NCBI GenBank assembly: GCA_025449935.1
Contig: JANWIJ010000021.1
Location: forward strand, 1-40,285
DNA length: 40,285 bases
Reading direction: 5' to 3'
Origin: Chitinophagaceae bacterium
GTDB taxonomy: Bacteria > Bacteroidota > Bacteroidia > Chitinophagales > Chitinophagaceae
Each line of letters opens with the position of its first letter. The first letter of the stretch is position 1. This document shows positions 17,951-31,542 of the stretch, piece by piece. A program made the translations under genes and the position numbers. Below the pieces are notes generated by a model, which was given only the letters and a program-made list of their open reading frames with translations, was not told where the DNA came from and searched no databases.

Positions 17951-18053
17951 AAAAAAAATGGCAGGCTTATTACATCGCACCGCTCAACCACCTACTCTTG
18001 CTGCCTTCCGGCCCTGGGAGGGTTCAGCAGGAGCTGGTCGTGTAAGACCTGCC
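17951..18053 (-). ncRNA. ffs: Signal recognition particle RNA (small bacterial type)
   Basis: On the minus strand 18053-17960 folds as a long hairpin. The ends pair (GGCAGG-CTTA with TAAG-CCTGCC, one bulged T), and the apical part contains CAGGGCCGGAAGGCAGCA, the conserved SRP domain with the GGAA tetraloop and asymmetric Ffh-binding loop. The RNA body is about 94 nt; it is followed by eight Ts (17951-17958), giving an intrinsic 3' end. A TATCTTTG promoter lies four bases upstream. The RNA pairs with Ffh to target nascent membrane proteins. The transaldolase gene follows in the same direction. Confidence 0.93.
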
Positions 18054-18057
18054 GGCG

Positions 18058-18065
18058 CAAAGATA
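18058..18065 (-). promoter_or_regulatory. Promoter of ffs
   Basis: The minus strand reads TATCTTTG, an exact TAnnTTTG, placed four bases before the 5' end of the folded SRP RNA, where initiation is expected. The -33 region is weak. Confidence 0.6.
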
Positions 18066-24031: not shown

Positions 24032-24802
24032 TCATTTAAGGACCATGTTCCTGAAATATTGTTCGGTAAATTCCGCGTTAATGCTGTTATAAAACCGGAT
24101 GAGTAACATCACTTTTTCCCGGATCCGCGGAAACTGGTCGGTTGTTTTCCAGAACCCTGCAGAGGGACTGAAAAGATTTTGAGCAACCGTATTAATATCA
24201 TTCTCCATGCCTGACAAGGCATACTGGGTAAGAAACCCCCGCTCACAAAGGATCGTGTCCAGGTCCTGTGATGATTTGTTTTTGCGGATAGCGCCTACCC
24301 CGCTTTCCGGGTCCGTGTAATCAAAACCTTCCGGGTTGGCTTTATTCCACCCTGCTGTATCCATCCGGGAAAAATAATTACGGTAGAGGATGCTGGAAAA
24401 TTCATGATGCAATGTTTGTTCAAGGTATAAGTCCGAATAGCCCATGGCCGCGCCATCATTGGTGAGATATAAAGCATCAGTTGAGTTCGTGCCGCCGTAT
24501 CCAACATTATAAAACTTCATGGACCTGAGAAAGTAAATGGCCTTCAGGTTTTTTTTCAATAGTGCATCCGGGTATTTATCCAGGGCTTTCAACACAATCT
24601 TTTTACTGCGCCCTGTTTCCCCTGCAGCTATTGCCTCACCCTGGCCCTTCACCGGGTTGACCTGCCACGAGGCCGGGAAAATTGCCGGGGAATAACTGAA
24701 CCGGATGGAGACTCCGGCTATTATGGTATCCGCAGTACCCGACTGCGAATGAGCTTTTATTGCAAACAGCAGGAAAATCACAACCGCATATCGTCTTTTC
24801 AT
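24032..24802 (-). CDS. Secreted zincin-like protein with an incomplete HExxH motif
   Basis: The 256-residue exported protein (signal peptide MKRRYAVVIFLLFAIKAHSQ) has the layout of the putative zinc metallopeptidases associated with SusD-type systems. A helix with LYLEQTLHHEFSSILYRNY is followed by DSGxG-type loops and ERGFLTQYALSGMENDINTVAQNLF, where the third zinc ligand would sit. In true enzymes the helix reads HExxH; here H133-E134-F-S-S137 ends in serine instead of histidine. It may therefore be a non-catalytic relative, or use another ligand such as H132. It is first in a leftward gene set and divergent from the trp operon. Confidence 0.72.
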   Translation of the reverse strand: MKRRYAVVIFLLFAIKAHSQSGTADTIIAGVSIRFSYSPAIFPASWQVNPVKGQGEAIAAGETGRSKKIVLKALDKYPDALLKKNLKAIYFLRSMKFYNVGYGGTNSTDALYLTNDGAAMGYSDLYLEQTLHHEFSSILYRNYFSRMDTAGWNKANPEGFDYTDPESGVGAIRKNKSSQDLDTILCERGFLTQYALSGMENDINTVAQNLFSPSAGFWKTTDQFPRIREKVMLLIRFYNSINAEFTEQYFRNMVLK

Positions 24803-24821
24803 ATGATAAATCTAAAAAGAA

Positions 24822-24852
24822 TTTGTCAATGTTTTTTTTGCTTCTATATTTG
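24822..24852 (+). promoter_or_regulatory. trp operon promoter
   Basis: TTTG at 24822-24825, exactly 19 bases, then TATATTTG at 24845-24852: a perfect match to the Bacteroidota promoter consensus at both elements. Only seven bases separate it from the leader peptide ATG, so the leader is translated from a very short or absent 5' UTR. Confidence 0.85.
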
Positions 24853-24859
24853 TCCGGCA

Positions 24860-24916
24860 ATGAAACAACAAACAATAAAACTATGGTGGTGGCCTGCTAC
24901 GCTAAAGGGGCTGTAA
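24860..24916 (+). CDS. trpL: trp leader peptide with three consecutive Trp codons
   Basis: An 18-codon frame encodes MKQQTIKLWWWPATLKGL and ends in TAA at 24914. Three adjacent TGG codons (24884-24892) in such a short frame, directly after a strong promoter and before the attenuator hairpin and trpE, mark it as a ribosome sensor of charged tRNA-Trp. The last codons (AAG GGG CTG) are themselves one strand of the antiterminator, so a ribosome that reaches the stop would mask them. Too short for usual gene callers. Confidence 0.9.
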   Translation: MKQQTIKLWWWPATLKGL

Positions 24917-24975
24917 TGTCATAACTATATTGTTTCAATATATTCAGACCCCGGCAATGTTCGGGGCTTTTTTTT
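24907..24975 (+). promoter_or_regulatory. trp attenuator (antiterminator/terminator switch)
   Basis: Two exclusive structures are visible. The terminator is CCCCG (24949-24953) with CGGGG (24962-24966) followed by eight Ts (24968-24975). The antiterminator is GGGGCTG (24907-24913) with CAG-A-CCCC (24945-24952), enclosing a perfect 7-bp hairpin TATATTG-TTT-CAATATA (24926-24942). Stalling at the Trp codons leaves 24907-24913 free and should allow read-through; completed translation should hide it and cause termination. This fits the bacteroid-trp RNA class described for Bacteroidota. The mechanism is inferred, the pairing is seen. Confidence 0.88.
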
Positions 24976-25039
24976 ACCCTTTTTCCGGGAGGGCCTGGAA
25001 AAATAAAGCGGAAAGAGTGGCAGGAAGCGAAAGAAAAAT

Positions 25040-26458
25040 ATGCGGAAGATAGAAGTCAATACAACCTGTAAAAGAATGCTGGCGGATGTGTTTACCCCGG
25101 TAGGTATCTACCTGCGCCTGCGGGACCGTTTCCGCGACACCATACTCCTGGAGAGTACGGATCATCATTCAGCAGCCGATAGTTATTCTTTTATCTGTAT
25201 CAATGCCATTGGCGGGATGGAGATCAGTTCACAAGAAAGTATTGAATTCAAATTTCCCGGCCAAAATCCCGAAAGGGCGATCCTGAAAAACAAAAACGAG
25301 GTTCCGGAACTGCTGTGGAATTTCATGCAAAGGTTTGAGGTAAGGAAAGGGGAGGATAAAGAAGCCGGTTTCGCGCAGGGACTATTTGGTTACACCACCT
25401 ATGAAGCCGTCCAGTTTTTCGAAACAATTGAACCCGTTCATCGTGACTCAACTCCCCCGATTTCACTGATGCGTTACCGGCTTTACCAGTATGTGATCGC
25501 GGTTAACCATTTTAATGATGAACTGTTTATTTGCGAGAATAAAATAAGTGGCCTCGAAAGTGATATAGCGGTAGTTGAGTCGCTGATCAGGAGCAGGGAT
25601 ATCCCGGTTTATCCTTTCAATACAACGGGGGAGGAAAGCGTAAACATGCGTGATGAGGAATATAAGGAGATGGTGGAAAAGGGAATGGCCAGTTGCCACC
25701 GCGGCGATGTTTTCCAGGTCGTACTCAGCAGGAGGTTTCAGCAAAAGTTTACCGGGGATGAATTCAATGTATACCGGGCGCTGCGGAGTGTAAATCCTTC
25801 TCCCTATTTATTTTTCTTTGATTATGGTGATTATAAACTGATGGGCTCTTCACCCGAAGCACAATTGGTGATCCGGGGCGGAAAAGCCTTTGTTCATCCA
25901 ATTGCAGGAACGTTCAAACGAACCGGCGATGATGAGGCCGATAAAGCAGCGGCCGAAAGATTATTAAAGGATCCCAAAGAGAATGCGGAACACGTGATGC
26001 TGGTGGACCTGGCCAGGAATGACCTGAGCCGTGTATGCGATGAAGTGACCGTGGCACAGTACCGGCAGGTTCAATATTTTTCTCATGTTATTCACCTGGT
26101 AAGTGAAGTATGCGGCCAGGTGAAAGATGGTAGTAACCCGTTTGAACTGATGGCCAAAACATTTCCCGCGGGCACATTGAGCGGTGCACCAAAATTCAGG
26201 GCGATGGAACTGATCGAAACATATGAACCGACATCCCGGAGTTTTTACGGTGGTGCAATCGGCTTTATGGGATTTGACGGCAGTTGCAATCACGCAATTA
26301 TGATAAGAACATTTTTGAGCCGGAACAATACGCTGACTTACCAGGCGGGCGCAGGCGTGGTGGCTGCCAGTAACCCGGAAAATGAATTGCAGGAAGTGAA
26401 TAATAAACTGGGGGCCTTGAAGAAGGCGATTGTCCTGGCCAAAGATATTTACGCATAG
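25040..26458 (+). CDS. trpE: Anthranilate synthase component I
   Basis: TrpE converts chorismate and ammonia (from TrpG) to anthranilate, the first committed step to tryptophan. The 472-residue protein has the feedback-binding signature LLES followed ten residues later by S (ILLESTDHHSAADSYSF), so inhibition by Trp should be intact. The chorismate-binding domain shows SPYLFFFDYGDYKLMGSSPE, HPIAGTFKRTGDDEADKAA, MLVDLARNDLSRV, FPAGTLSGAPKFRAME and YGGAIGFMG. It is the first structural gene of the operon, 64 bases after the attenuator T run, with trpG 15 bases downstream. Confidence 0.97.
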   Translation: MRKIEVNTTCKRMLADVFTPVGIYLRLRDRFRDTILLESTDHHSAADSYSFICINAIGGMEISSQESIEFKFPGQNPERAILKNKNEVPELLWNFMQRFEVRKGEDKEAGFAQGLFGYTTYEAVQFFETIEPVHRDSTPPISLMRYRLYQYVIAVNHFNDELFICENKISGLESDIAVVESLIRSRDIPVYPFNTTGEESVNMRDEEYKEMVEKGMASCHRGDVFQVVLSRRFQQKFTGDEFNVYRALRSVNPSPYLFFFDYGDYKLMGSSPEAQLVIRGGKAFVHPIAGTFKRTGDDEADKAAAERLLKDPKENAEHVMLVDLARNDLSRVCDEVTVAQYRQVQYFSHVIHLVSEVCGQVKDGSNPFELMAKTFPAGTLSGAPKFRAMELIETYEPTSRSFYGGAIGFMGFDGSCNHAIMIRTFLSRNNTLTYQAGAGVVAASNPENELQEVNNKLGALKKAIVLAKDIYA

Positions 26459-26473
26459 CATGAACTATCAATT

Positions 26474-27055
26474 ATGAAGATTTTAGTTTTTGATAATTAT
26501 GATTCCTTTACCTACAACCTGGTTCACCTGGTTGAAAAGATCACCCATGTAAAAGTAGCGGTGTACCGGAATGACCAGCTGCTACTGGAACAGGTGAAGG
26601 AATATGATAAGATTATTTTATCCCCCGGCCCTGGTGTGCCGCGGGAAGCAGGGTTATTAATACCATTAATTAAAGAATATGCGGCTTCTAAACCGATCCT
26701 GGGCGTTTGTCTCGGTCACCAGGCGATCGGCGAAGCCTTTGGCGGTAAACTGGTAAACCTGTCGACCGTGTATCACGGGGTAGCAACGGGAATTGAAACC
26801 GGGGAGATCAATTCAGCAGGAAGAAGTCCTTTATTTAAAGGGTTGCCCCGCCGCATCGAAGTAGGGCGCTATCATAGCTGGATCGTAAGTGATGAAGGAT
26901 TCCCCGCTGAACTTGAAGTGACCGCTCGGGATGATAATAATTATATCATGGCATTGCAGCATAAAAACTATGACGTCCAGGGCGTGCAGTTTCACCCCGA
27001 AAGTGTATTAACACCTTTGGGAGAGGATATTTTAAGAAATTGGCTGAAGAGTTGA
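26474..27055 (+). CDS. trpG: Anthranilate synthase component II, glutamine amidotransferase
   Basis: The 193-residue class I glutamine amidotransferase supplies ammonia to TrpE. The triad is visible: Cys79 in GVCLGHQAIGEAFGG, and His174 with Glu176 in VQFHPESVLT. The N-terminus (ILVFDNYDSFTYNLVHLVEK) and KIILSPGPGVPREAGL are typical. In Bacteroidota the same subunit may also serve PabB, if no separate pabA exists; that cannot be judged from this window. It is not fused to trpD or trpE. Confidence 0.97.
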   Translation: MKILVFDNYDSFTYNLVHLVEKITHVKVAVYRNDQLLLEQVKEYDKIILSPGPGVPREAGLLIPLIKEYAASKPILGVCLGHQAIGEAFGGKLVNLSTVYHGVATGIETGEINSAGRSPLFKGLPRRIEVGRYHSWIVSDEGFPAELEVTARDDNNYIMALQHKNYDVQGVQFHPESVLTPLGEDILRNWLKS

Positions 27056-27070
27056 TTTGCAAATTTGAAA

Positions 27071-28063
27071 ATGAGAAAAATACTTCAATACCTGTTTGAA
27101 CATAAAACGCTGGGGAGGGAACCGGCAAAAGAGGTTTTGCTGAATATTGGCAAAGGCAGTTACAATGAGAACGAAATAACGGCTTTTATGACGGTATACC
27201 TGATGCGGAGTATCACGATTGAAGAACTGCAGGGATTCAGGGACGCATTACTGGAGCTGTCTGTAAAAGTTGATTTAAACGGTTACCAGGCAATGGACAT
27301 TGTAGGCACAGGCGGCGATGGCAAAAACACGTTTAATATTTCCACGCTGGCCTGTTTTATCGTTGCGGGCACCGGGCAAAAAGTAGCAAAACATGGTAAC
27401 TATGGTGCATCATCTGTCTGCGGGTCCAGCAATGTAATGGAGCAGTTGGGGTATAAATTTAATAATGATAATGAGCGGTTGGTAAAAGAGATTTCAGCCA
27501 CAAACATTTGCTTCCTGCACGCGCCATTATTTCACCCGGCATTGAAAATCGTAGCACCGGTAAGAAAGAACCTTGCGATGCGGACATTTTTTAATATGCT
27601 GGGGCCGCTGGCAAATCCCGCGAATCCCGCTTACCAGTTGGTGGGTGTATTTAACCTGGAGATGGCCAGAATCTATAACTACCTGCTGCAACAAACCGGG
27701 AAACCTTTTACCATCATTCATGGTTTGGATGGCTATGATGAAATATCCCTGACAAACGATACCCGCGTAATAACCAACGAGGGTGAAAGAATCATGACCC
27801 CAGAGCAATTGGGTAAACGGATGGTATCAGCACAGGATATCAGCGGTGGTAACAGCGTGGAAGAAGCGGCAAAGATCTTCACTGGTATTCTGAAAGGCGA
27901 AGCCAGCTGGGCGCAGCATGCCGTGGTTTTGGCCAATGCGGCAATGGCGTTACATTGCACCGGAAGTTATGAAAGCTATGATGATGCCTACCAGGCAGCG
28001 GTGGAAAGTTTGGAAAGCGGAAAAGCGAATGACTGCCTGGTTAAACTAATAAGCTTGCAATAG
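27071..28063 (+). CDS. trpD: Anthranilate phosphoribosyltransferase
   Basis: TrpD joins anthranilate to PRPP. A TTG at 27065 is in frame, but the ATG at 27071 fits the family start (MRKILQYLFEHKTLGREPAKEVL); the product is 330 residues. The PRPP loop is DIVGTGGDGKNTFNIST (GTGGDG at 79-84). KHGNYGASSVCGSSNVMEQLG, the conserved RNLAMRTFFNMLGPLANP and HGLDGYDEISLT follow. It begins 15 bases after trpG and is followed by a 40-base gap before trpC. Confidence 0.96.
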   Translation: MRKILQYLFEHKTLGREPAKEVLLNIGKGSYNENEITAFMTVYLMRSITIEELQGFRDALLELSVKVDLNGYQAMDIVGTGGDGKNTFNISTLACFIVAGTGQKVAKHGNYGASSVCGSSNVMEQLGYKFNNDNERLVKEISATNICFLHAPLFHPALKIVAPVRKNLAMRTFFNMLGPLANPANPAYQLVGVFNLEMARIYNYLLQQTGKPFTIIHGLDGYDEISLTNDTRVITNEGERIMTPEQLGKRMVSAQDISGGNSVEEAAKIFTGILKGEASWAQHAVVLANAAMALHCTGSYESYDDAYQAAVESLESGKANDCLVKLISLQ

Positions 28064-28103
28064 CTTTTTAGGCGATACCGTATTTGAATTCGAAACTGAA
28101 AAG

Positions 28104-28898
28104 ATGGATATTTTAGAAACGATAGTGGCGGCCAAAAAAAAACAAATAGAAAAATTCAAACCGATGAGCAGTATCGAAAGGTTTGAGCGGGATGGATTTT
28201 TCTGGGAGGTAAGAAACAGGTCGCTGGTGCAAAGTTTACTGCTCCCCGGCAGTACGGGTATTATTGCTGAATTTAAACGGAAGAGTCCCAGCAAAGGATG
28301 GTTCCAGACAAAGGAACTGGAAGTAGAACCGGTGGTGGTTTCGTATAATAAATTTGCGGCAGGCATTTCTGTGCTCACAGATGATGAATTCTTTGGCGGT
28401 GACCTGGATGACCTGATCCAGGCAAAAGTGGTGAGTGATATCCCGGTATTGCGCAAGGATTTTATCATTGATAAATGGCAGATAGCGGAAGCAAAGGCTT
28501 TTGGTGCGGATGTGATCTTATTGATTGCTGCCTGTTTACCGGGGGCCGGGGTAAAGGAACTGGCCGTCTATGCCAAAAGTATTGGGCTGGAAGTGTTGCT
28601 GGAGATTCATGATGAGAAAGAACTGGAACATATTTGTGACGAGGTGGATCTGGTGGGCGTAAACAACCGTAACCTGAAAACCTTTGAAGTTAGTATTGAA
28701 AATGCATTGAGCCTGGTGAATAAAATTCCCCGGGAAAAGCCGGCGGTGGCAGAAAGCGGCATCAGTAACCGGGAAACGATTCAGCAATTAAGACAGGCTG
28801 GCTATAAAGGGTTTTTAATGGGCGAAGTGTTTATGCGGGAAGAAAACCCCGGGAAGGCATTTGAAGAATTTGTAAATAATTTAAAACAAGAATCATGA
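28104..28898 (+). CDS. trpC: Indole-3-glycerol phosphate synthase
   Basis: TrpC closes the indole ring from carboxyphenylaminodeoxyribulose phosphate. The 264-residue TIM barrel shows IIAEFKRKSPSKGWF with the catalytic lysine, GISVLTDDEFFGGDLDDL, VLRKDFIIDKWQI, DVILLIAACLP, GLEVLLEIHDEKEL, VGVNNRNLKTFEV and VAESGISNRETIQQL with the phosphate-binding end. It is a stand-alone domain, not fused to TrpF as in enteric bacteria. Its TGA overlaps the ATG of trpF (ATGA), so the two are translationally coupled. Confidence 0.97.
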   Translation: MDILETIVAAKKKQIEKFKPMSSIERFERDGFFWEVRNRSLVQSLLLPGSTGIIAEFKRKSPSKGWFQTKELEVEPVVVSYNKFAAGISVLTDDEFFGGDLDDLIQAKVVSDIPVLRKDFIIDKWQIAEAKAFGADVILLIAACLPGAGVKELAVYAKSIGLEVLLEIHDEKELEHICDEVDLVGVNNRNLKTFEVSIENALSLVNKIPREKPAVAESGISNRETIQQLRQAGYKGFLMGEVFMREENPGKAFEEFVNNLKQES

Positions 28899-29524
28899 AC
28901 ATCAAAGTATGCGGCATTACCGACATGAAGCAACTGCAGCAGCTTGACGGGCTGGATATTGATTTTGCGGGACTTATATTTTATAAGGAATCTCCGCGGT
29001 ATATCGGCGGCAAGCTTTCGAAAAAAGATGTGAAGAGCGCCGATTTTGATTTGAAGAAAACAGGTGTCTTTGTCAACCCGGAAATGATCGAAGTGCTCGA
29101 TGCTATTGATGAATATGGGCTGGATGCCGTGCAATTGCATGGAGAGGAAAGCCCCGGGATGTGCGAAGACCTGGGCAGCGAAGTGGAAGTGATAAAAGCT
29201 TTCAGGGTAGTGGAGGGGACAGATATAGATAAACTCGTTGCCCCTTACGATGCGGTCTGTGATTATTATTTATTTGATTCAGGTGGATTGAAGGAAAGTT
29301 TTGGAGGCACCGGGCAGCAATTTGACTGGACTGTTTTAACGCGTGCCAAAATTGAAAAGCCATTCTTTTTAAGTGGTGGGATCGGTGTGGAAGATGCGGC
29401 CAAAATAAAAGTGTTTAAACATCCGGATTTTTTCGGGGTGGATATTAACAGCCGGTTTGAAAAAAGCCCGGGCGTGAAAGATATGGGTGCGGTATTGCAG
29501 TTCAGGCAAGCGATGAAAAAGTAA
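28895..29524 (+). CDS. trpF: Phosphoribosylanthranilate isomerase
   Basis: TrpF carries out the Amadori rearrangement before TrpC. The 209-residue TIM barrel begins [17 protein letters not shown] with the catalytic Cys in KVCG. It continues with [46 protein letters not shown], a YYLFDSGG segment with the general acid Asp, [15 protein letters not shown] and [16 protein letters not shown]. It overlaps trpC by four bases and ends one base before the ATG of trpB. Confidence 0.96.
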
Positions 29525-29525
29525 C

Positions 29526-30755
29526 ATGGCCCCCAAAGGAACATACCAGCAACCCGATGAACAGGGCTATTATGGCCAGTTTGGAGGTGCCTACATTCCG
29601 GAGATGCTCTACCGGAATGTTGAAGAGTTGCGGACAAAGTACCTCGGGATTATTTATGAAGATTCTTTTCAAAAAGAGTTTCACCAACTATTAAGGGATT
29701 ACGTGGGCCGGCCAACGCCTTTATATTTCGCGGAACGGTTGAGCCGGCAATTCAGGACAAATATTTATCTAAAGCGGGAAGACCTTTGCCACACCGGGGC
29801 GCATAAGATCAATAACACGATCGGGCAGATCTTACTGGCGGAGCGGTTGGGGAAGAAAAGGATCATTGCAGAAACAGGTGCGGGTCAGCACGGCGTTGCC
29901 ACCGCTACGGTCTGTGCATTGAAAGGAGTGGAATGCCTCGTTTATATGGGTGAAAAGGATATTGAACGGCAGGCGCCGAATGTAGCGAGAATGAAAATGC
30001 TCGGTGCTACCGTCATATCCGCGATCAGCGGCAGCAAGACCCTGAAGGATGCAACGAATGAAGCGATACGCGACTGGATCAATCACCCGGATGACACACA
30101 TTATATCATCGGGAGCGTGGTAGGACCGCATCCTTATCCCGATTTGGTAGCAAGGTTCCAGTCTGTGATCAGTGAAGAAATACGCAAACAGCTAAAAGAA
30201 AAAACAGGGAAGGAATTACCAACGCATGTAATGGCCTGTGTTGGGGGCGGTAGTAATGCAGCCGGGGCATTTTATCATTTCCTTGAAGAACCTGCCGTGC
30301 AATTGATAGCGGTAGAAGCCGCGGGACTTGGGCTGCATAGCGGTTTGAGTGCAGCCACCACACAACTCGGAAAGCCGGGGATTTTGCATGGCAGTAAAAG
30401 CCTGCTGATGCAAACAGCCGATGGCCAGGTGTTGGAACCGCATAGTATTTCAGCCGGCCTTGATTATCCCGGCATCGGTCCGATGCATGCCCATTTATTT
30501 AAAAGCGGCCGGGCCACTTTCCTGAGTGCTACTGATGATGAAGCCTTAGTTGCTGCTTTGGAACTGGCGAAACTCGAAGGAATTATCCCTGCGCTGGAAA
30601 CGGCGCATGCACTGTCAGCTCTAAAATATCTGAACCCCGGCTCTTCTCCGGGAGAAGGAGCTAAGGAACTGTTCTTTAAAAAAGAAGATGTGCTGGTGAT
30701 TTGTTTGAGCGGGAGAGGGGATAAGGATTTGGATACTTACATGAAACATCTTTGA
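29526..30755 (+). CDS. trpB: Tryptophan synthase beta chain
   Basis: TrpB condenses indole with serine using PLP. The 409-residue protein is of the TrpB1 type, which works with TrpA. It shows [31 protein letters not shown] with the PLP lysine near residue 94, [36 protein letters not shown] in the phosphate-binding loop, [12 protein letters not shown] and [14 protein letters not shown]. The start ATG lies one base after the trpF stop and trpA follows 16 bases downstream. Confidence 0.98.
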
Positions 30756-30771
30756 GCTCACTCCAACAATT

Positions 30772-31542
30772 ATGAGCAGACTAACAGATACATTTCAGCA
30801 ACCAGCCAAAAAAGTATTGAATATTTACTGTACTGCAGGCTACCCGAAGCTGGATTCGACGCTGGAGGTGATGAAAGCGCTCCAGGAACATGGGGCTGAT
30901 ATCATTGAACTTGGCATTCCTTACAGTGACCCCTTAGCTGATGGACCGGTTATCCAGCACAGCAGCAGTATGGCATTGAATAATGGGATGACCATTGCCA
31001 GGCTCTTTGAACAATTAAAAGATTTCCGGAAAGATATCAGCATCCCGGTTATATTAATGGGCTACCTGAATCCAGTTTTGCAATATGGCTTTGAAAGATT
31101 CTGTGCCGATGCGGCCATCGCGGGTATTGACGGACTGATCATACCGGACCTGCCAGTGTATGAATTTGAAACAGTGTATTGCAGCATCATCAAAAAATAT
31201 AAGCTTGATTTTATTTTCCTGGTTACACCCGAAACGCCGGAAAAAAGAATAAAAAAACTTGACAGCCTTAGCAGCGGGTTCCTCTATGCCGTTTCCTCTT
31301 CTTCCACAACGGGGAGCGATCCAAAAGCGAGGAAGGCGGGGAATTACCTGCAAAAACTCCGGGATTTGCCCCTTAAAAACCCGGTATTGGTGGGTTTCGG
31401 CATCAACAATAAACAAAGCTTTGATACCGTTTGTCAGCAGGCCGGTGGTGCCATTATCGGGAGTGCCTATATTAAAGCATTGGAAAACAGCACAGATGTT
31501 AATGCAGCCACAAAATCCTTTCTTTCGTCCATACGGAGCTGA
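30772..31542 (+). CDS. trpA: Tryptophan synthase alpha chain
   Basis: TrpA splits indole-3-glycerol phosphate and passes indole to TrpB. The 256-residue TIM barrel has the two catalytic residues Glu46 (IIELGIPYSDP) and Asp57 (PLADGPVIQHSS), VILMGYLNPVLQYGFERF, GLIIPDLPVYE, LVTPETPEKRI, YAVSSSSTTGSD and LVGFGINNKQSF, followed by GAIIGSAYIKAL. It is the last gene of the trpEGDCFBA operon. No hairpin terminator is visible after it; the next gene has its own promoter. Confidence 0.97.
   Translation: MSRLTDTFQQPAKKVLNIYCTAGYPKLDSTLEVMKALQEHGADIIELGIPYSDPLADGPVIQHSSSMALNNGMTIARLFEQLKDFRKDISIPVILMGYLNPVLQYGFERFCADAAIAGIDGLIIPDLPVYEFETVYCSIIKKYKLDFIFLVTPETPEKRIKKLDSLSSGFLYAVSSSSTTGSDPKARKAGNYLQKLRDLPLKNPVLVGFGINNKQSFDTVCQQAGGAIIGSAYIKALENSTDVNAATKSFLSSIRS

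Follow-up and report, generated by a model that had tools for sequence, protein, structure and literature searches.

The tryptophan operon in this 40,285-nucleotide stretch of DNA (the window), part of a genome of 3.5 Mb, is preceded by what we judge, with a probability of about 85%, to be a ribosome-mediated transcription attenuator whose sensor peptide is started from, or almost from, the 5' end of the RNA. A trp attenuator is confirmed here and is complete in its anatomy. A Trp-containing leader ORF lies before the trp genes, an intrinsic terminator stands between the leader and the first gene, and an antiterminator shares one strand with the terminator and has its other strand at the leader stop. 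The elements that a sequence-only reading had reported (a promoter, seven bases, an 18-codon frame with three TGG codons, a terminator, eight T, and trpE) are all present where it placed them. Its claim of ribosome-mediated trp attenuation gains support from this anatomy, from the recurrence of the leader in 95 of 95 regions of the window's family, and from the preference of strands 2 and 3 for pairing with their own partners.

The first gene of the operon, trpE (25040-26458, + strand), has TIGR00564 as its best model (E 6.5e-124; 414.4 bits, under the equivalog cut-off of 517.7). It is followed by trpG, trpD, trpC, trpF, trpB, and trpA in this order (26474-31542, + strand), so that the gene order after the attenuator is trpEGDCFBA. 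The NCBIfam models for trpG (subfamily), trpD, trpB, and trpA score above their cut-offs; trpC (258.1 against a cut-off of 260) and trpF (152 against 215) are best matches that both fall below theirs. The ORF that precedes the attenuator (24032-24802) is on the opposite strand, and the terminator stem at 24949-24966 is therefore not that ORF's own. Elsewhere in the window, a small SRP RNA is found at 17955-18061 on the - strand (Rfam RF04183, 88.9 bits).

How widely is the leader shared? We assembled 207 trpE upstream regions, having excluded loci whose TrpE match starts beyond residue 40, and retained 200 distinct regions after merging duplicates and removing those with short upstream DNA. 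Loci were assigned to the window's family, which is probably Chitinophagaceae, by TrpE similarity (62-83% identity) and record titles rather than by a tree, and an Epilithonimonas locus (L080) was kept apart from it. A TrpE match at E 1e-60 was obtained in only 21 of the 42 genomes of the genus. Because 17 of the 21 genomes without a match are listed at 1.5-2.1 Mb, tryptophan synthesis may have been lost in these small genomes, some of which are incomplete.

The leader peptide of the window, MKQQTIKLWWWPATLKGL, is encoded on the + strand by 18 codons and a TAA stop (24860-24916), with its ATG at 24860 and its stop at 24914-24916. The sensor codons TGG TGG TGG (24884-24892, + strand) do not vary among the 47 sequences that make up alignment A1, which were chosen from leaders of the GGGG/GAGG type, and the N-terminal part of the peptide is variable among relatives. 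All 95 distinct family regions that we kept carry a Trp-containing leader upstream of trpE; 87 were called by rule (a short ATG-started ORF with clustered Trp codons) and the remaining eight were read by eye. Two of the eight are GTG-started WWW leaders (L083, L101), and six contain a single Trp codon (L052, L059, L060, L063, L065, L066). These six share a GWH context, keep a terminator-like hairpin, and have the -7 box 5 nt before the start. Across all families the rule called a leader in 178 of the 200 distinct regions, the other 22 being the eight of the window's family and 14 from other families.

Some details of the leaders deserve mention in their own right. GTG is the start nearest the promoter in L002, L083, L086, L048 (4 nt after the -7 box), and L101 (7 nt), and some of the 87 rule-called leaders (L002, L086) have a far upstream in-frame ATG and more probably start at GTG. 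In a relative from the same genus (G018; loci L102 and L103), trpE matches in two pieces, one of them with an internal stop; an uninterrupted Trp leader ORF and terminator persist there, and the -7 box is off consensus at one place. When we searched by pattern for more Trp leaders of the near-leaderless kind, the result was too noisy for a count. Three of its matches were opened and judged by eye: L284 and L304 resemble trpE leaders, and L298 resembles an ordinary gene.

Ahead of the leader lies a promoter of the Bacteroidota kind. TTTG at 24822-24825 (+ strand) matches the -33 consensus reported in PMC6847099 and PMC7366714, and after a gap of 19 nt TATATTTG at 24845-24852 (+ strand) matches the -7 consensus TAnnTTTG exactly; seven bases then separate it from the leader ATG. 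Transcription in Flavobacterium johnsoniae is reported to start 4-5 nt past the -7 box (PMC6847099), and the -7 box of F. psychrophilum is reported to cover -12 to -5 (PMC9723704). These distances predict a start at 24857-24858, and thus a 5' UTR of 3 nt (24857-24859, + strand), or of 2 nt if the start is 24858. One published definition calls an mRNA leaderless when its 5' end maps 0-5 nt upstream of the start codon (PMC5784534). The predicted start of the trp leader would be near-leaderless. Such short UTRs make up small fractions in the relevant start-site studies: 5.5% of F. psychrophilum mRNAs are reported as leaderless (PMC9723704), UTRs under 10 nt account for 3.7% in Bacteroides thetaiotaomicron (PMC7366714), and leaders exceed 10 nt in 87% of the F. 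johnsoniae transcripts with a probable promoter (PMC6847099), so about 13% have 10 nt or less. Short UTRs are thus not especially rare in this last relative, a point that weighs against our preferred reading. The F. psychrophilum study also reports hints that amino acid operons are attenuated through leader peptides (PMC9723704).

The distance between box and start codon is where the family departs from ordinary genes. In every set we measured it from a strict -7 box, with at least three of four matches to TTTG 18-21 nt upstream, to the first in-frame ATG. Such a promoter pair could be placed for 81 of the 87 family trp leaders examined (six gave no promoter call), and in 75 of the 81 the -7 box lies at most 10 nt from the start; the median is 7, and 49 of the 81 have a spacing of exactly 7. 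The same short distance occurs in 16 of 20 placed his leaders of the family (25 examined, five without a promoter call). Trp leaders of other families are less uniform: 90 were examined, 26 gave no call, and 40 of the 64 that could be placed lie at 10 nt or less. Ordinary genes, taken from the window and from control DNA (633 ORFs, 840 kb in all), show a distance of 10 nt or less in 7 of 56, with a median of 35.5 nt; this proportion is close to the figure of about 13% for F. johnsoniae (PMC6847099), and this control supersedes a smaller first one (4 of 27). With a looser -33 rule the counts at 10 nt or less are 75 of 82 for family trp leaders, 17 of 21 for his leaders, 43 of 72 for other trp leaders, and 19 of 120 for ordinary genes. 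Fisher tests against the control give p values of 9e-23 (trp) and 7e-8 (his), uncorrected for relatedness, which all of our spacing statistics ignore.

These counts bear on whether this is an ordinary leadered attenuator, with the true promoter further upstream, a normal 5' UTR, and TATATTTG not serving as a start signal. That ordinary control genes mostly lie further from the box would suit such an arrangement, as would the spacing in another family (f5), where it exceeds 10 nt in 10 of 15 leaders. However, 75 of the 81 placed family leaders have a -33/-7 pair at this place ahead of their start, and a chance box would not keep its position within a few bases. We consider the leadered arrangement very unlikely. 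A chance match as the origin of the -7 box was rejected because its spacing to the leader start is conserved. The very short 5' UTR proposed from the sequence alone stands as a prediction, resting on a spacing that is a conserved family trait. Near-leaderless initiation seems to be a design conserved in the family's trp leaders, and most of the his leaders that we examined in the family share it. Leaders were found under 27 labels (25 other family labels, the window's family, and L080), and 18 of these include one or more with a spacing of at most 10 nt.

Two further observations concern these spacings. His-rich leader peptides (for example MKINIHIHHHHFISNG) precede hisG at 25 of 30 loci (L247-L276) by rule and at 27 by eye. 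Among distances of 4-10 nt, the values 4, 7, and 10 nt, corresponding to UTRs of about 0, 3, and 6 nt, are favored in the trp leaders of other families (24 of 39) and in the his leaders (12 of 16); the binomial p values of 0.014 and 0.009, respectively, are post hoc and ignore relatedness.

The regulatory structures begin in the last leader codons. Strand 2, the 5' arm of the antiterminator (GGGGCTG, 24907-24913, + strand), is complementary to strand 3, the 3' arm CAG-A-CCCC (24945-24952, + strand), which overlaps the 5' arm of the terminator. A terminator scan and folding place the intrinsic terminator at 24949-24975 on the + strand, with its stem at 24949-24966 followed by T8 (24968-24975). 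For the 2:3 segment the predicted energy is -12.2 kcal/mol (z -2.40), a value reached by 3 of 200 shuffles; for the terminator segment 24946-24968 it is -9.8 kcal/mol (z -1.63), reached by 15 of 200. Taken as a whole, the leader has an ordinary stability (z -0.97, reached by 35 of 200). Within the antiterminator, the sequence-only reading had drawn an inner 7-bp hairpin. The complementarity that it saw exists (TATATTG-TTT-CAATATA, 24926-24942, with 24926-24932 opposite 24936-24942, + strand), but the predicted minimum 2:3 fold lengthens the outer stem instead.

A terminator-like hairpin is present in 84 of 85 family leaders, and 72 of these 84 are of the GGGG/GAGG type, 47 of them being included in alignment A1. 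A second structural type, with WWWHG, WWWHN, or WWH leaders (L073-L075, L077, L078, L108), has a long terminator stem, GGCTCGCTG or GGCCCGCTG, in place of the GGGG/CCCC type.

Since RNAalifold on the broad alignment A1 gave little, we used a strand-swap test for the antiterminator. The duplex of strands 2 and 3 has a mean energy of -10.46 kcal/mol with its own partner and -9.43 (sd 0.20) with partners swapped between species, and no swap of 200 was as good (z -5.2); shuffling strand 2 gives -6.05. Our strand-swap tests leave relatedness in, and for this reason their z-scores should not be read as probabilities. Individual leaders vary at both arms: GGGG/CCCC is replaced by GAGG/CCTC in L037, L043, and L055, and two leaders place GGGG opposite CCTC, giving a G-U pair. 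In L013 and L048 the leader ORF stops early and the G-rich strand is retained past the stop, which suggests that the RNA strand itself may be under selection. RNAalifold detected two-sided changes at 2 of 25 pairs in alignment A2 and 2 of 12 in A1, all four in the terminator. The antiterminator does not appear in its consensus on either alignment; this structure and the other folds are mutually exclusive. The pairing of 24907-24913 with 24945-24952, for which covariation had been the suggested check, is supported by the preference of strand 2 for its own strand 3, relatedness not removed.

A 1:2 (pause) hairpin is usual, though not defining, for ribosome-mediated trp attenuators. At the position of the family's 1:2 hairpin (24884-24927, + strand), the window's segment folds at -9.0 kcal/mol, which is no better than its shuffles (z +0.66) and the weakest of 85 family leaders. 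The earlier remark that no convincing 1:2 hairpin is present was right for the window but does not extend to the class. Over 84 family leaders the 1:2 energy averages -15.9 kcal/mol, whereas shuffling of the downstream part gives -9.4 (sd 0.28); z is below -1 in 78 of 85. When 13 near sequences are folded to a consensus, the stop region pairs with the Trp codons and those that follow them. In 83 of 84 family leaders, six or more bases of the Trp-codon strand find partners in the sequence that begins just ahead of the stop. Shuffled sequences do so in about 47 of 84, and for this reason the energies tell more than the number of pairs. The two strands also prefer their own partners (-13.56 against -12.59 when swapped, sd 0.16; z -6.1, relatedness not removed). 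No two-sided changes occur in 1:2 pairs in alignments A1 or A2, so that support for this hairpin comes from conservation and energy, not compensatory change. Outside the family, 1:2 pairing is weaker, with a mean of -13.9 against -10.7 when shuffled and z below -1 in 53 of 90 leaders.

The window's leader has PAT (CCT GCT ACG) where near relatives mostly have HTT (CAT ACA ACT), and after the Trp codons CAT is used for 66 of 76 His and ACA for 53 of 58 Thr. Ahead of the Trp codons ACA predominates as well (45 of 56), so that codon bias by itself proves nothing. The conserved codons that follow Trp form part of the 1:2 arm, in agreement with pairing in cis. Could the terminated leader RNA or its peptide instead act in trans, like rnTrpL/peTrpL in Sinorhizobium, and attenuation be of lesser weight? 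Release would be expected of a short near-leaderless mRNA that stops at a terminator, and Sinorhizobium offers a precedent (PMC7298713), but the N-terminal part of the peptide varies and the conserved post-Trp codons belong to the 1:2 arm. We regard an action in trans as extremely unlikely.

Under ribosome-mediated attenuation with a near-leaderless sensor, the reading that we prefer, we infer the following course. RNA polymerase would initiate 2-3 nt before the AUG, and a ribosome would load on the emerging 5' end through a UTR of 2-3 nt. When Trp-tRNA is scarce, the ribosome would stall on the three Trp codons, leaving strand 2 free to pair with strand 3, and this 2:3 pairing would let transcription proceed into trpE. 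When Trp-tRNA is plentiful, the ribosome would reach the stop codon and cover strand 2, so that the 3:4 terminator could form. In the family, the 1:2 hairpin on the Trp codons would favor termination on RNA that carries no ribosome, and it could also make the polymerase pause; in the window's genome this hairpin is degenerate.

How does this attenuator relate to known RNA classes? The sequence-only reading had pointed to the Bacteroid-trp RNA of Rfam and proposed a search with its model. That assignment gains no support: RF01692 has no match in 24700-25150 at E up to 5 (cut-off 49 bits) and none in 98 family genomes (E 0.001 with strict filters; trpE is not assured in every genome). In a sample of the phylum it matches 14 of 158 genomes, all in the one other family f5, and in a lenient search of 12 relatives it gave one match, L007, at 34.2 bits and E 4.4. 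We rejected Bacteroid-trp membership on these covariance model scores from the window, the 98 family genomes, the phylum sample, and the 12 relatives. A more lenient interpretation, compatible with our preferred one since the mechanism would be the same, is that the window holds an RF01692 member too divergent for the model. Shared gene context and logic speak for it, as does the L007 score of 34.2 bits, set against the cut-off of 49; the lack of any match in the window or the family genomes and the confinement of sample matches to f5, with its different spacing, speak against it. We think such divergence rather unlikely. The Trp_leader model RF00513 scores 21.0 bits on the window against a cut-off of 41, and the best of the 12 relatives (L003) reaches 33.7 bits.

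In Escherichia coli, the trp leader has tandem Trp codons, a stop near strand 2, alternative 1:2, 2:3, and 3:4 pairings, and an intrinsic terminator before trpE, and it is translated from an ordinary UTR with a ribosome binding site. The window shares with this attenuator (RF00513) the tandem Trp codons, the leader stop near strand 2, the alternative pairings, and the terminator before trpE, and differs in its predicted near-leaderless start. The window's attenuator would work like that of E. coli yet is matched by neither Rfam model. Bacteroid-trp RNAs (RF01692; Weinberg 2010, PMC2864571) are likewise reported as Trp leaders before trp genes in Bacteroidota, but their model misses the window, and its sample matches lie only in f5, where long spacings prevail. 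The closest reported parallels for the start come from other phyla. The trpL RNA of Sinorhizobium meliloti, an alphaproteobacterium, begins at the ATG of a Trp leader peptide and thus has a leaderless attenuator sensor (PMC7298713). In Corynebacterium diphtheriae, an actinobacterium with leaderless transcripts for 20% of its genes, the start codon of the ilvB leader peptide is the mapped transcription start (PMC5784534). Leaderless leader peptides are already known in both genera. In the titles, listed abstracts, and text passages that our searches covered, we found no description of near-leaderless leader peptides in Bacteroidota. Within that literature, a conserved near-leaderless start on Bacteroidota trp leaders seems to be new. 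The trp leaders of a large Bacteroidota family are also overlooked by the Bacteroid-trp model of Rfam.

What might such a start be for? To our knowledge, Shine-Dalgarno sequences are absent from Bacteroidota, and leaderless mRNAs are a minority there. We put forward tentatively, with somewhat less than even confidence, that Bacteroidota sensor peptides, at least those for trp and his, use a dedicated start that depends on the 5' end and lets the first ribosome join the RNA the moment it emerges from the polymerase. UTR lengths in steps of three (about 0, 3, and 6 nt) may be preferred, and the window's leader would be a natural example of a degraded 1:2 hairpin beside a retained start near the 5' end. 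Attenuation depends on a ribosome that keeps pace with the polymerase, and Bacteroidota begin translation with no Shine-Dalgarno sequence to guide it. A sensor start that is both conserved and near-leaderless bears on these two matters, and it makes ribosome-polymerase coupling and Shine-Dalgarno-free initiation testable together in one small reporter.
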